Of a stretch of 64,000 nucleotides of DNA, positions 21,200 to 62,460 are shown in pieces; the stretch's first letter is position 1, and every line of letters begins with the position of its first letter. The translations under genes were made by a program, and so were the position numbers. The notes under the pieces were generated by a model. That model was given only the letters and a program-made list of their open reading frames with translations, had not been told where the DNA came from and ran no database searches. This DNA comes from Candidatus Kuenenia stuttgartensis (GTDB lineage: Bacteria > Planctomycetota > JAKEIC01 > DYIT01): NCBI GenBank assembly GCA_020723505.1, contig DYIT01000001.1, forward strand, positions 72,530-136,529, read 5' to 3'.

Positions 21200-24100
21200 T
21201 CATATGCGTATCCGGAGTCTCTGTTCCGTGCGGGACAGCGCAGGGAGCCATGCAAGCCGGCCGCCGTAATAGTGGCTTACGCTGTCCGAGGGAAACGCGG
21301 TTCGGCTGGATGCTCTCGAAAGCAGCGGAGCGCCCGGCCAGCACCCGCCGCGGCAGACCCTGAACGAGGCGTTCTCGTCGCCGGGCGGATTCAGACAGCC
21401 CTCGCGCGCGTTACCCGCCATGCCCCTTGCGCCGAAAGGCGACTCGTCCACTGGGAAGGAACCCACCGGGCTTGGCCGGATGCCGCCCGCATGCGAGGTC
21501 GAATTGTTGCAGAACGTCCCGTCCATGTGGTCGCCCCAGGGATAGATTCTGGAGTCCACGCCCCTGGCCGCCTTCTCCCACTGGACCTCGTGCGGAAGCA
21601 TGAAGAGCCTGCCTGATTCCTTGGTGCGCCAGGACGCGTATGCCGCGAGATCCTCCCATGAAATCCCGAACACCGGCCAGTCGGGATCCCACCAGACCGG
21701 GCTCATCTCCAGCTTCCCCGCCTGCCGCTTCCAATCCTGATTCTCCTGATCCCGCTTCCTTGCTTCGCCTGCATACGCCGGCAAGGGCTTCGCAGGGCTG
21801 GCCGCGGGAGACTGATTCACCTGATTCGAGGCGGAAACCTCCAGGATCCACTTCTCCGTGGGGATGTGGAATCGGCCTTCGGAATCCCTCGGCCAGTAGA
21901 AGCCGGCAGTCGGAACCTTCCTGGGAACGCGTTTCTCCGCCCCGGCAGCTGTGTTCAAGAAATGAAGGTACTCGCTGCACGTGACCGGGAACTTCGAGAT
22001 GAAGAAATCATCAGTCCACCTGTACGCCGCGGGAAGCGAATACGGATTGTTCCTGTCCCCCTGGTATGCGAATCCCCCGCCATGCACCTGCACGAATCCA
22101 CCGGGGATTTCCTCCTCGCGGTACAGCGTGACCGTCAGCCGCTCCTCCGCAAGCCTGCCGATGTTCACGACCGCGCGAATGGGGGCGTACTCGTGCTCAG
22201 TGCAAGGGTGGAGGGTGGAGGTTCGAGGGTCGAGCGAACTCGCTTCTTCAGGCATTTTGCTTCCACTCTTCCACACGTCATCCTTCACCCTCTCCTTATG
22301 CTCCACCCCGGACCCTTTGCCCTTTACCCTGTCTTCCTTGCCGTATGCGACGACGATTAGGTACGACCCCATTGGAAGCCTGAACTTGGGGATGGGGGTC
22401 TTGCCGAGATAGAGGCCGTCGGAGGGCCGGAAGGGCGAGCCGGTGTCGTACAGGCGGTCGAGAACTTGGGGTGGGAGGGTGGAAGGGTGGAAGGGGGGAA
22501 GGGAGGAAGGGGAATCAGGCAATGAAGGCAGTATTGGCAGAAGAATCCTTCCCCGCTCTTCGAACCTGAAGAGCCACACGTCCGCGCCGGCAAGGGGCTG
22601 CGTCTTGCATTCAGTCCCGTGGACCTTGAGGTGCAGCGGCTCCTCCGGATTGGTCCCGGCCGGCTCTTCCGCGATTTTGCTTTTTGCCGCGCGGCGGGAG
22701 CCCATCACTCCGCGGCTGGAAGGGTCCAGGGTCGAGGGGGGAGGGTTCGGCGAGCAGGAGCCTGCGTCTCCTTCCGCAGCCCGCGTACTCCTACCCTCCC
22801 ACCCTTCACCCTTCACCCTTTCCCCTGCCAGCTCGTCCGGAGCGACAAAGCGCCCTTCCGTCAGGCATCGGCAGGGGAAGTGCCTAGTCAAGATTGCCAG
22901 CGTCCCGTCCCCCTTGAGGCGCATGTCGAACGATCCGTCGTTGTATTCCCGGACGAGGTTCTCGCAGAAGAGCATCTCCTTCCTGTTGCCCTTCTCCTCC
23001 TCGAAAAGGAACTGCCGCCAGTACATCTCGGCAAGGGCCGTCCGGGCTTCGGCGTTACCCCTGTCGAATTCGAGCGCCGCCTGCAGCGTTCTTCCTGCCT
23101 TCGAATAGACGCGGACCGATTCGTCCGAAAGATTCTGGAACCGGGCTTCGATGTCCCACAGCTCCTTCTTGCGCTCGACCGGCCAGTGCTGCCTGACCTC
23201 GGCCTGTTTTTCCATGATGCGCAGCTCGAGGTCGTTCAGCTCTTCCCTGATGCGATCGAGCTCCGCGATGAGCGCCCTGCCTTCAGCTATCTTCTCCGAC
23301 GCCTTGCCGCGGTCCCGTTCCCGTTCCCTCTCCCCCTCGAGGAATCTTCCAATCCCCGCATTCAGCTCGCGCACCGACTGGAACCGGTCCTCCTTGCGCC
23401 TCGACATGGCCTTGAGCACCATCGCATCGAGCTCTGCAGGAACCGGATGGGGCGGGAGGTCCTCGGGGGCAGGGTGGAGGGTGGAGGGTGGAGGATTCAC
23501 CGGGAGGGATTCGATTTCTGCCGCCTGCACCTCATGCGGCTCGACCCTCGACCCTTCAACCTTCACCCTTTCGGAGTCTGCGCGGGCCTGCCTGATCTCC
23601 TCCACGCGCCTCGAAGGCGGAACCAGGCATCCGGAAAGCACCTTGTCGATCACGCTCAGGACGCTGCTGCCCTCGAACGGCGCCCTGAGGGTCAGAATCT
23701 GGTACAGGATTGCGCCGAGCGAGTAGACGTCGCTGCGCTCATCAATCTCCTTGAGCTTGCCGTCCGCCTGCTCGGGCGGCATGTAGGACGGACTGCCCAC
23801 GATGTCGCTCTCCCACGTCGCGTCCGTGTCGTCCGCGTCCCATGCTCCGGCAGCCCTTGAGCGCATCCGCGGGGCCTCCATCATCCCCTTCCGGCCTGCA
23901 AGGCCCCAGTCGACCACGAACACCTCGCCGTAGTTCCCGACCATCACGTTGGAGGGCTTCAGGTCCCTGTGGATGATGCCGTGGTCGTGAGCGAACTCGA
24001 TTGCGTTGCAGATGCCCTGGAAGATCCCGAGAAGCCTAGGCATGGTGAACGCGGCGATGGATTCCGCATCCCCGTTCCGGATTGAAAGCAGAATCTGGCC

Positions 24101-24757
24101 GAGGTTCCTTCCCTCGATTTTCGCCATGGTGAAGTATGGCGTGTCCACCCCCTGGTCCTTGAGGATGCCGATGTCGTAGACCGGGACTATGTTGGGGTGG
24201 GGCAGCCTGCCTGCTATGCGGCCTTCGGCGAGAAACGGCTCCGCGTCGCCCCCGGCGTTCTCGGGAAGCATCATCTTCACAGCCACTTCCCTGCCGAAGT
24301 CCGTGTCCACGGCCTCGACCACGCGGCTTATGCCTCCCCTCCCGAGCTCCCCGCGAAACACGTACTTGTCCTTCTGCCCCCGCCTCAGCTTCGTGGTTCC
24401 CGCCTTGGATCTCCGCTGGGACTTGCTCCTCGACTTGAGCTCGGACCTGTCCATGGGTCCGCCCGTCGCGGGCCCGCCGAAGCATGCGAGCACCTCTGAT
24501 CGGATCGAATCCCCAACGGGAAGGGTGGAAGTCGCGGTTCCTGCATTGCCGCCGCTCTTCGCGATAATCTCGGCCGACAGGAGCATGAGCGCCTTGAACG
24601 CCTGCTTGTTGATGCTCCCCTTCTCGACCAGGATCTCGGCAAGCGCCCTGCCTGGGGACGACATCAGAACGTCGATGGATCCCCGCAGGTCCTCAATCGA
24701 TACTAGCCCGAGCTGGCGCCCGAGCATTGCCACGAGCATGTCGGTCTGGGATGACAT
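21200..24757 (-). CDS. Ser/Thr protein kinase fused to FGE/SUMF1-like domain, with in-frame repeat insertions
   Basis: 1185 aa from ATG 24757 (MSSQTDMLVAMLGRQLG); the ORF extends to 25057, but that extension reads through a dispersed inverted repeat, and a TATAAT lies just upstream of 24757. An N-terminal helical domain (1-125) precedes a kinase with ELGRGG, AVKMML, IHRDLKPSN, DWG in place of DFG (VVDWGLA) and MPPEQA. A coiled-coil/TPR-like middle leads to a C-terminal FGE-like domain (about 880-1170: FFISKFPVTCSEY, RIYPWGDH, RGGCW, YYGGRLA). Low-complexity insertions encoding RVKxEG...PPPSTLHP-type sequence lie near residues 395-429, 645-680 and 809-852, with a partial one near 748-763 and another type near 975-1010. 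The first splits the kinase C-lobe loop before PAELDAMVLKAM. All insertions keep the frame open. Confidence 0.88.
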   Translation of the reverse strand: MSSQTDMLVAMLGRQLGLVSIEDLRGSIDVLMSSPGRALAEILVEKGSINKQAFKALMLLSAEIIAKSGGNAGTATSTLPVGDSIRSEVLACFGGPATGGPMDRSELKSRSKSQRRSKAGTTKLRRGQKDKYVFRGELGRGGISRVVEAVDTDFGREVAVKMMLPENAGGDAEPFLAEGRIAGRLPHPNIVPVYDIGILKDQGVDTPYFTMAKIEGRNLGQILLSIRNGDAESIAAFTMPRLLGIFQGICNAIEFAHDHGIIHRDLKPSNVMVGNYGEVFVVDWGLAGRKGMMEAPRMRSRAAGAWDADDTDATWESDIVGSPSYMPPEQADGKLKEIDERSDVYSLGAILYQILTLRAPFEGSSVLSVIDKVLSGCLVPPSRRVEEIRQARADSERVKVEGSRVEPHEVQAAEIESLPVNPPPSTLHPAPEDLPPHPVPAELDAMVLKAMSRRKEDRFQSVRELNAGIGRFLEGERERERDRGKASEKIAEGRALIAELDRIREELNDLELRIMEKQAEVRQHWPVERKKELWDIEARFQNLSDESVRVYSKAGRTLQAALEFDRGNAEARTALAEMYWRQFLFEEEKGNRKEMLFCENLVREYNDGSFDMRLKGDGTLAILTRHFPCRCLTEGRFVAPDELAGERVKGEGWEGRSTRAAEGDAGSCSPNPPPSTLDPSSRGVMGSRRAAKSKIAEEPAGTNPEEPLHLKVHGTECKTQPLAGADVWLFRFEERGRILLPILPSLPDSPSSLPPFHPSTLPPQVLDRLYDTGSPFRPSDGLYLGKTPIPKFRLPMGSYLIVVAYGKEDRVKGKGSGVEHKERVKDDVWKSGSKMPEEASSLDPRTSTLHPCTEHEYAPIRAVVNIGRLAEERLTVTLYREEEIPGGFVQVHGGGFAYQGDRNNPYSLPAAYRWTDDFFISKFPVTCSEYLHFLNTAAGAEKRVPRKVPTAGFYWPRDSEGRFHIPTEKWILEVSASNQVNQSPAASPAKPLPAYAGEARKRDQENQDWKRQAGKLEMSPVWWDPDWPVFGISWEDLAAYASWRTKESGRLFMLPHEVQWEKAARGVDSRIYPWGDHMDGTFCNNSTSHAGGIRPSPVGSFPVDESPFGARGMAGNAREGCLNPPGDENASFRVCRGGCWPGAPLLSRASSRTAFPSDSVSHYYGGRLAWLPALSRTEQRLRIRI
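21725..21835. repeat. CTGATTC-rich in-frame insertion in FGE domain
   Basis: CCTGATTCTCCTGATCC and GACTGATTCACCTGATTC bracket about 100 bases that translate on the minus strand as NQVNQSPAASPAKPLPAYAG... The stretch interrupts the FGE-like domain between two conserved blocks without breaking the frame. It is a different word family from the GGGTGGAGG insertions. Confidence 0.5.
22204..22331. repeat. GGGTGGAGG insertion element, copy A (in gene)
   Basis: The + strand starts GGGTGGAGGGTGGAGG and ends in pyrimidine-rich CTTCACCC/CCCTTTACCCT, giving imperfect complementary ends. Minus-strand translation begins DRVKGKGSGVE and ends RTSTLHP, in frame with the kinase-FGE gene. Confidence 0.7.
22467..22515. 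repeat. GGGTGGAAGGG insertion element, partial copy B (in gene)
   Basis: Only the purine-rich arm is present (GGTGGGAGGGTGGAAGGGTGG). It translates on the minus strand as SLPPFHPSTLPP, again in frame. Confidence 0.6.
22718..22825. repeat. GGGTGGAGG-family insertion element, copy C (in gene)
   Basis: Starts GGAAGGGTCCAGGGTCGAGG and ends CACCCTTCACCCTTTCCCC. Minus-strand translation begins ERVKGEGWEG and ends NPPPSTLDP, in frame with the kinase-FGE gene. Confidence 0.7.
23472..23575. repeat. GGGTGGAGG insertion element, copy D (in kinase C-lobe)
   Basis: Starts AGGGTGGAGGGTGGAGGGTGG and ends CCCTTCAACCTTCACCCTTTC. Minus-strand translation begins ERVKVEGSRVE and ends NPPPSTLHP. It sits between the SRR stretch and PAELDAMVLKAM, which are only a few residues apart in related kinases. 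Confidence 0.75.
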
Positions 24758-26788: not shown

Positions 26789-26971
26789 AGGATGTTATTC
26801 TTCCTGAAACGCGCGAATATTGAATCCGGACCGGGACGTCGGCTGTATATAACCCGGACGAGCCGGAACCCCGGTCCGGTTCCGCCCGTCGGGGCATGTT
26901 GAACCCCTATGGCCGGGATTGTTTTTTCGTTGCGAACAAATTCGAGAGAACAACGTAACGTCTTGCATCGT

Positions 26972-27022
26972 TGAAGTTTGGGATTTGGGTTTTCGTTGGG
27001 ATTTGGATTTTGGGATTTGAGA
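26972..27022. repeat. GGGATTTGG minisatellite-like run
   Basis: Repeated words TTTGGGATTTGGGTTTTCG, TTGGGATTTGG and TTTTGGGATTTGAG occur in tandem, unlike the high-G+C surroundings. A shorter version, GGGATTTGGCTATTGGAGGTTGG, lies at 15430-15451. Confidence 0.55.
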
Positions 27023-27083
27023 TTTTCACATATTCTGCGCTTGTCAGTATGCAGTTCTGCGGTCCGTTTTGGAGGCCCGGGCA

Positions 27084-27991: not shown

Positions 27992-28019
27992 GAACGTGAA
28001 CCGTAAACCGTTAACAGTA
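27992..28019. repeat. CGTGAACCGTAAACCGTTAAC heptamer-like run
   Basis: GTGAACCGTAAACCGTTAAC is built from seven-base AACCGT(A/T) units. A related run, GTTAACCGTCAACCGTCAGCC, lies at 29772-29792. The spacer 27957-28355 has no gene. Confidence 0.5.
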
Positions 28020-28088
28020 ATAGCCGCCGCAGAGTCGAGGGTCGCAGGTATACCCTAGGCCGTGGGTAAGTAGACACGTTGCGCGCCG

Positions 28089-29732: not shown

Positions 29733-29812
29733 GAAGGGTGGAGGGTACAGGGTTGAGGGTGGAGGGGGTTCGGTTAACCGTCAACCGTCAGCCGCAGACT
29801 GTACCCTGTAGT
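29733..29812. repeat. GGGTGGAGG element, intergenic copy E
   Basis: GAAGGGTGGAGGGTACAGGG and GGGTTGAGGGTGGAGGGGGTTCGG, followed by AACCGTCAACCGTCAG and CTGTACCCT; AGGGTACAG (29742-29750) and CTGTACCCT (29799-29807) are complementary. Minus-strand translation gives PSTLNPVPSTLQ, like the in-gene copies. Confidence 0.65.
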
Positions 29813-30017: not shown

Positions 30018-30248
30018 TTAACCACCGAAGACACCGATGACACCGAAAATCATGCCAGTTGGGTTGGGCTCTCCTCCTGGGGCACTTCTTCTGAATAAAC
30101 GATGCGTTTGAACTCGAGCACTCGGGAGCCTACGTTGATGAGCAGGCCCAATTCGTGTCTCGTAATTTAAAGGCAGTTGATGATTTCAGCCCTTCGGGTC
30201 TATCTCCATCCCCCCTCCTTCGGCGTCTTCGGTGTCTTCGGTGGTTAA
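30018..30248. mobile_element. Repeat-flanked element enclosing a GxxExxY gene remnant
   Basis: Left arm TTAACCACCGAAGACACCGA (from 30018) and right arm ending GGTGTCTTCGGTGGTTAA (to 30248) are near-perfect inverted repeats made of ACACCGAAG-type units; an extra partial left arm is at 29980. Between them lies a minus-strand coding remnant (separate entry). The rest of the spacer 29634-30327 shows no gene. Whether the unit is mobile is inferred from its structure only. Confidence 0.5.
30077..30187 (-). pseudogene. Remnant of GxxExxY-family protein C-terminus
   Basis: Minus strand reads EIINCL, stop (TAA, 30167-30169), ITRHELGLLINVGSRVLEFKRIVY. This resembles the end of GxxExxY proteins, which typically reads like AEIINYLKATGLELGLLINFG followed by LEFKR. 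Only about 37 codons remain and a Lys codon appears to have become TAA. Family assignment is from memory of the signature and should be checked by profile search. Confidence 0.6.
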
Positions 30249-62342: not shown

Positions 62343-62460
62343 CTGTGGGAGCCGCCGGAGAACACTTGCACAAGTCAGTAAGAAGTCTGTGGGAGCCGCC
62401 GGAGAACACTTGCACAAGTCAGTAAAAAGTCTGTGGGAGCCGCCGGAGAACACTTGCACA
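62343..62460. repeat. 44-bp tandem repeat, 2.7 copies
   Basis: Unit CTGTGGGAGCCGCCGGAGAA plus CACTTGCACAAGTCAGTAA(G/A)AAGT, starting at 62343, 62387 and 62431; the third copy stops after CTTGCACA. ACTTG-CA-CAAGT is a small palindrome in each unit. Copies one and two differ by only one base. Confidence 0.9.

Follow-up and report, generated by a model that had tools for sequence, protein, structure and literature searches.

Palindromic repeats that are translated as part of a protein were once called unique to Rickettsia; REPs of some species were later added to them. Rickettsia palindromic elements (RPEs; Ogata 2000, 2002) are about 150 bp long and form ten families in Rickettsia (reviewed in PMC10969869). 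GTAG/CGTC REPs, whose intragenic copies were described in 2013, are mostly intergenic but also occur in frame in genes of several phyla, and reportedly lean to replication and repair genes (UvrABCD, DnaE, RecBCD; PMC3733652). Degenerate heptads form the P6b stem of the Nostoc tRNA-Leu intron (Class I, TDNGATT; Class II, NNTGAGT; PMC4476775), and the G-rich GGGNATC heptads of Xanthomonas and Nostoc occur as single arrays that are under-represented in coding regions (PMC4692102). PARCELs are 25-residue tandem repeats in open reading frames (ORFs) without assigned function, some of them membrane-targeted (PMC2996958), and worm mitochondria harbor coding palindromes of a different kind (PMC6649704). 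The open-access literature searched, a scope outside which most subscription papers lie, contained no description of a heptad-armed element such as the one reported here.

The window analysed here is a 64,000-nucleotide stretch of a Candidatus Kuenenia stuttgartensis contig. Its ORF for a kinase–FGE protein (Table 1) is a genuine gene: the product, starting with MSSQTDM, has Pfam matches to Pkinase (residues 133–371) and FGE-sulfatase (888–1169). The ORF contains three full elements, each consisting of two inward-facing (AGGGTNN)3–4 arms, together with one half-element and one CTGATTC-type insert. A preliminary description, made from the sequence alone, had claimed repeat elements in this ORF (three full copies and one partial, with a fifth in intergenic DNA), a frame open over 1185 codons, an insertion splitting a short loop of the kinase C-lobe and a CTGATTC-rich word family interrupting the FGE domain. 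All four claims held, the C-lobe insertion being element 3, which lies between two helices. The description also called the element ends imperfectly complementary and suggested that the RNA may fold into hairpins; the AGGGT core alone pairs between the arms, and the computed hairpins are strong (MFE −39 to −82; −58.8 for element 3, folded with 12-nt flanks).

Table 1. Kinase–FGE host gene, its repeat elements and an intergenic copy, in window coordinates.
Feature	Coordinates	Strand	Arms	Protein	Remarks
Host gene, Ser/Thr kinase–coiled coil–FGE-sulfatase domain protein	21200..24757	(-)		1185 aa	Pfam
Element 1	22205..22330		22205-22230 + 22305-22330	residues 810-851	between two strands
Element 2	22721..22826		22721-22746 + 22801-22826	residues 645-680
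Element 3	23471..23569		23471-23496 + 23544-23569	residues 397-430	kinase C-lobe loop
Partial copy	22469..22511			residues 750-763	one-sided GGGTGGAA array, period 8
CTGATTC-class insert in FGE domain	about 21735..21835			residues about 975-1007	peptide NQVNQ...DQENQ
Intergenic copy	29735..29812		29735-29767		single clear heptad arm

AlphaFold modelled the window protein with a mean pLDDT of 73.6, and the stretches with pLDDT below 50 at residues 404–434, 645–704 and 812–852 coincide with elements 3, 2 and 1, respectively, and each is flanked by confident helices or strands, namely helices 381–402 and 441–450 for element 3. Residues 982–988, within the CTGATTC-class insert of the FGE domain, also fall below 50. 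The model thus predicts that the inserts sit in low-confidence loops of the host protein, which favors the preliminary interpretation of segments inserted in frame.

The AGGGTNN repeats are not due to chance. Dinucleotide shuffles predict 3.8 matches to the arm word in the window, which contains 20, and the genome has 100, against 4 for a reversed control pattern; a stricter three-unit pattern gives 45 matches in this genome and 1 across 39 other genomes of the phylum, and a paired (two-arm) pattern gives 16, with 0 in the control. Two further repeat classes are dispersed as well (47 and 78 genome matches, 0 in controls), the CTGATTC word giving 78 against 0. Many contig ends of this assembly (C21, C57, C86, C88, C108, C110) fall within or beside a heptad element, which is therefore probably under-counted.

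Several other repeats were observed. Intergenic single heptad arrays (L095–L121), several with the conserved flank GAGTTCCGCCGCTC...GGCAANCNGGNAAGTATTGACC, apparently represent a composite repeat. In the window, inverted CACCGAAGA nonamer arms (30018–30047 and 30219–30248; 93% complementary, 171 nt apart, intergenic) have the same architecture as the heptad elements, with a different word and unit length. At 26971–27026, 27995–28020 and 29776–29794, short heptad arrays of other words (TTTGGGA, CGTAAAC, AACCGTC) lie near or between genes, and a tandem repeat with a 44-bp unit (2.7 copies, 98% matches) occupies 62343–62460.

Protein searches revealed about 20 kinase–FGE paralogues in the 4.95-Mb, 207-contig assembly. 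On alignment, the insert blocks appear as clean gaps both in the basal paralogue L085 and in L094, a relative placed in a different family of the phylum, again favoring the preliminary interpretation. The site before the kinase C-lobe helices carries AGGGTNN in L087 and L108, AGTGTNN in L089a, CTGATTC in L084, L088 and L091, and GAGATTC in L090, and is empty in others; the sites of elements 1 and 2 hold AGGGTNN in some paralogues and AGTGTNN in others, with that of element 2 empty in L094, L085, L089a and L102. Repeat classes therefore replace one another at one loop site among paralogues. They are scattered over the core tree of the paralogues (inner support values are low), with element-free forms outermost, and AGTGT units adjoin AGGGT units in mixed arrays of L087 and L089b. 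Nearly all in-gene copies of this genome lie within the kinase–FGE family; because they are crowded in one paralogous family, many are related by descent and do not represent independent arrivals. The single further in-gene copy is located in an unrelated kinase–TPR gene, between the HRDIKPANIL and DFG motifs, at a site that forms a short turn in PknB. Two kinase–FGE paralogues (L102:2220–4367 and L115:4027–5070) are without the middle of the protein (query residues about 200–788 and 542–939, respectively), possibly as a result of recombination between repeats or of assembly.

To look beyond this genome, one genome per species was scanned for three heptads facing three heptads. At least 119 stretches were found, in Chloroflexi, Elusimicrobia, Methylomirabilota, Gemmatimonadota, Planctomycetota, Omnitrophota, Cyanobacteria, Bacteroidota, Desulfobacterota, Proteobacteria and candidate phyla. 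Matches in so many phyla rule out a lineage-specific element, a correction to the preliminary description. Whole-genome overlapping matches reach 115 in one Elusimicrobia and 59 in one Chloroflexi genome, with 0 for the reversed control. An artefact of metagenome assembly can also be rejected, as the element is present in the cultured Zavarzinella formosa, Oscillochloris sp. ZM17-4 and Wenzhouxiangella limi.

Sixteen of 84 elements are embedded in ORFs that extend for 50 codons or more on either side, and all 16 read RVExxG...PxPxTLxP or close variants; two of the loci (L147 and L182) look like one MnmA gene seen twice, leaving about 15 distinct genes. According to Pfam, these encode UvrC, UvrA, DnaE (twice), MutS, RecJ, GatB, BipA, MnmA, QueA and AtpG, the remainder being a radical SAM protein, an epimerase, an aspartyl protease and one unknown. 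PDB homologues of MutS, GatB (two inserts), AtpG, MnmA, BipA and QueA are without the inserts, and in the epimerase, protease and radical SAM hosts the insert lies outside the Pfam domain. Replication or repair genes make up 6 of the 15 hosts, several of them from one genome, so that any leaning to such genes is a lead rather than a test. Of the 24 copies in the Chloroflexi genome, 7 are in ORFs, two of which are short and perhaps spurious. Among Doudnabacteria relatives, a loop of UvrC holds nothing in several genomes; in others it contains heptads or inserts of other kinds. Other inserts at the UvrC loops (L330–L347; ASEAKQS, TPRNDN, NPPLARGGG) resemble translations of further common palindromic repeats. 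The search in other proteins has thus located copies in about 20 paralogues, an unrelated kinase–TPR gene and foreign housekeeping genes. The preliminary interpretation would have been refuted by finding these segments at identical sites of this gene in distant species. No such case was seen: where distant species have the element, they have it in other genes.

That the in-gene copies share one reading frame, as first described, was confirmed as an observation, but the shared frame is built in by heptad arithmetic and palindromy. Because 7 = 1 mod 3, each unit moves the frame by one, and a heptad array encodes one and the same 7-residue peptide whichever frame is read; because the element is palindromic, the peptide is also identical in both orientations. 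An ideal element accordingly reads RVEGGGW...PPSTLHP in 6/6 frames, and heptad length and palindrome together give RVExxGx...PxPSTLxP in all six. A common frame thus does not count as independent evidence of design: selection need supply only a total length divisible by three and the absence of a stop at the NN positions. The frames of the elements are no more open than those of dinucleotide shuffles, which leaves tuning for openness in all frames unsupported. The NN bases of paired arms match no better within than between elements (p about 0.65–0.97, three genomes). The arms are therefore not recent copies of each other, with only the 5-base core pairing, and maintenance of the hairpin by base-pair compensation is likewise unsupported; what holds the AGGGT core constant is not explained by our analysis. 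Ten non-ORF copies flanked by long ORFs on one and the same strand included no split gene. Seven of them separate clearly distinct genes, for example those for an IF-2 and an RbfA protein or for two antiporter-type complex I subunits; the other three, without Pfam matches, are undecidable. Out-of-frame insertion was thus not seen in any of these ten flanking gene pairs, with the reservation of the three undecidable ones.

The elements are likely to be translated palindromic repeats, that is, coding palindromes; dispersal, in-frame position in loops, clean absence from homologues and an ORF open throughout are shown, whereas translation and mode of spread are inferred, without proteomics. In each, inward-facing arms of 3–5 degenerate heptads (AGGGTNN versus NNACCCT) enclose a variable 30–90-nt center. 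Whatever its frame and orientation, a copy adds one and the same short segment, hydrophilic and rich in proline, and whether the gene survives depends only on copy length and a few stop-prone NN positions. Copies may arrive as hairpins in flexible loops, out-of-frame arrivals would be purged by selection, and the arms may later undergo turnover one unit at a time, which would preserve the 5-base core but not the NN pair. Arrival through REP-like copying of hairpin DNA, rather than through growth on the spot, is an inference and the weakest step. No near-identical filled/empty DNA pair was found, so that neither a target-site duplication nor a single insertion event has been seen; the centers differ among copies, unlike those of a classic mobile element. 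A bolder reading, which we put forward only tentatively and regard as less likely than not, would be a pan-bacterial, hitherto unnamed family of coding palindromes with heptad arms. By their unit length and symmetry these would be insensitive to frame and orientation; they would spread through genomes and be swapped class for class at fixed loop sites, thereby furnishing both essential and paralogous genes across many phyla with new protein segments.

The strongest of the alternatives is that the segments are low-complexity linkers grown in place by 7-base slippage, with nothing ever inserted. Tandem heptads in the arms, variable unit numbers and the mixed AGTGT/AGGGT arrays are all compatible with this, and many paralogue copies share their sites by descent. 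However, slippage yields direct repeats, yet every full element has an inverted second arm with the same core word; moreover, that word turns up again between genes and within unrelated ones, and the element is present in many phyla. We therefore regard slippage as unlikely. Less probable still is a contingency switch, in which adding or losing a single heptad would change the frame and thereby toggle kinase or repair genes. The unit arithmetic (7 = 1 mod 3) would allow it, and the foreign hosts include mutS, uvrA, uvrC, dnaE and recJ, reminiscent of intragenic REPs (PMC3733652). Against it, the degenerate units, in which NN varies, lower slippage, all in-gene copies in the ORF test are in frame, and 0/10 tested copies split a gene (three undecidable). 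A DNA or RNA signal (G-quadruplex, terminator or protein-binding array) that is translated only incidentally is similarly improbable. Each arm has four GGG tracts, with 4–5 units preferred as in the Xanthomonas and Nostoc G-quadruplex heptads (PMC4692102), and many intergenic copies lie close downstream of genes; but the same sites are also occupied by AGTGTNN and CTGATTC repeats, which have no GGG tracts; a G-quadruplex is thereby excluded as a general rule. Ribosome skipping has been proposed for yeast mitochondrial byp elements; that ribosomes here skip the hairpin, leaving the segment out of the protein, can be dismissed almost entirely, since despite the strong hairpins the in-gene copies are in frame and stop-free throughout the insert, neither of which skipping would require.

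With coding palindromes as the preferred reading, the parallel to RPEs drawn in the preliminary description is supported, with the addition that in-frame intragenic palindromes outside Rickettsia, the REPs, have been known since 2013 (PMC3733652). Like RPEs, the heptad elements are palindromes in frame within unrelated genes, absent from homologues and encoding a common peptide. By contrast, they have arms of degenerate 7-base units, no conserved center and hosts in many free-living phyla; their lengths range over 69–152 nt and only the heptad core is common, failing the RPE standard of about 150 bp with whole-length conservation within a family, and we therefore do not file them as RPEs. With intragenic REPs they share short palindromes, in-frame copies and replication or repair hosts among the foreign genes. 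However, a REP has a single 5–13-bp stem and a GTAG/CGTC tag, whereas heptad arms are 26–35 nt long and periodic, with a mismatched NN every 7 nt; no such tag was found at the element ends inspected, by eye only. Y1_Tnp is present in 5/5 element-bearing genomes but also in 5/14 control genomes, an observation of presence and not of linkage. GGGNATC repeats are likewise G-rich 7-base tandem units, dispersed and with four units preferred, but are not known to have an inverted second arm or in-frame insertions (PMC4692102). PARCELs resemble the elements in being dyad-symmetric DNA that encodes a peptide repeat and is punctate across phyla, but are not inserts in housekeeping genes.

In construction, the heptad elements match the STRR-type repeats and the Nostoc P6b stem: inverted arms of 7-base tandem units with fixed and free positions (5 and 2 in Class II), and classes that replace each other at one site. 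The P6b stem, however, sits in an intron and not in protein-coding sequence. Several repeat classes compete within a single genome for shared loop sites in one gene family, and strain comparison makes two questions testable: how palindromes gain entry to genes, and whether the extra segments have any effect. What is likely to be new here, with the mode of spread unproven, is a coding palindrome built of degenerate heptads like cyanobacterial repeats and working like RPEs and intragenic REPs. Thus, a differently built element does in many phyla what these systems do, and does so in essential repair and translation genes.
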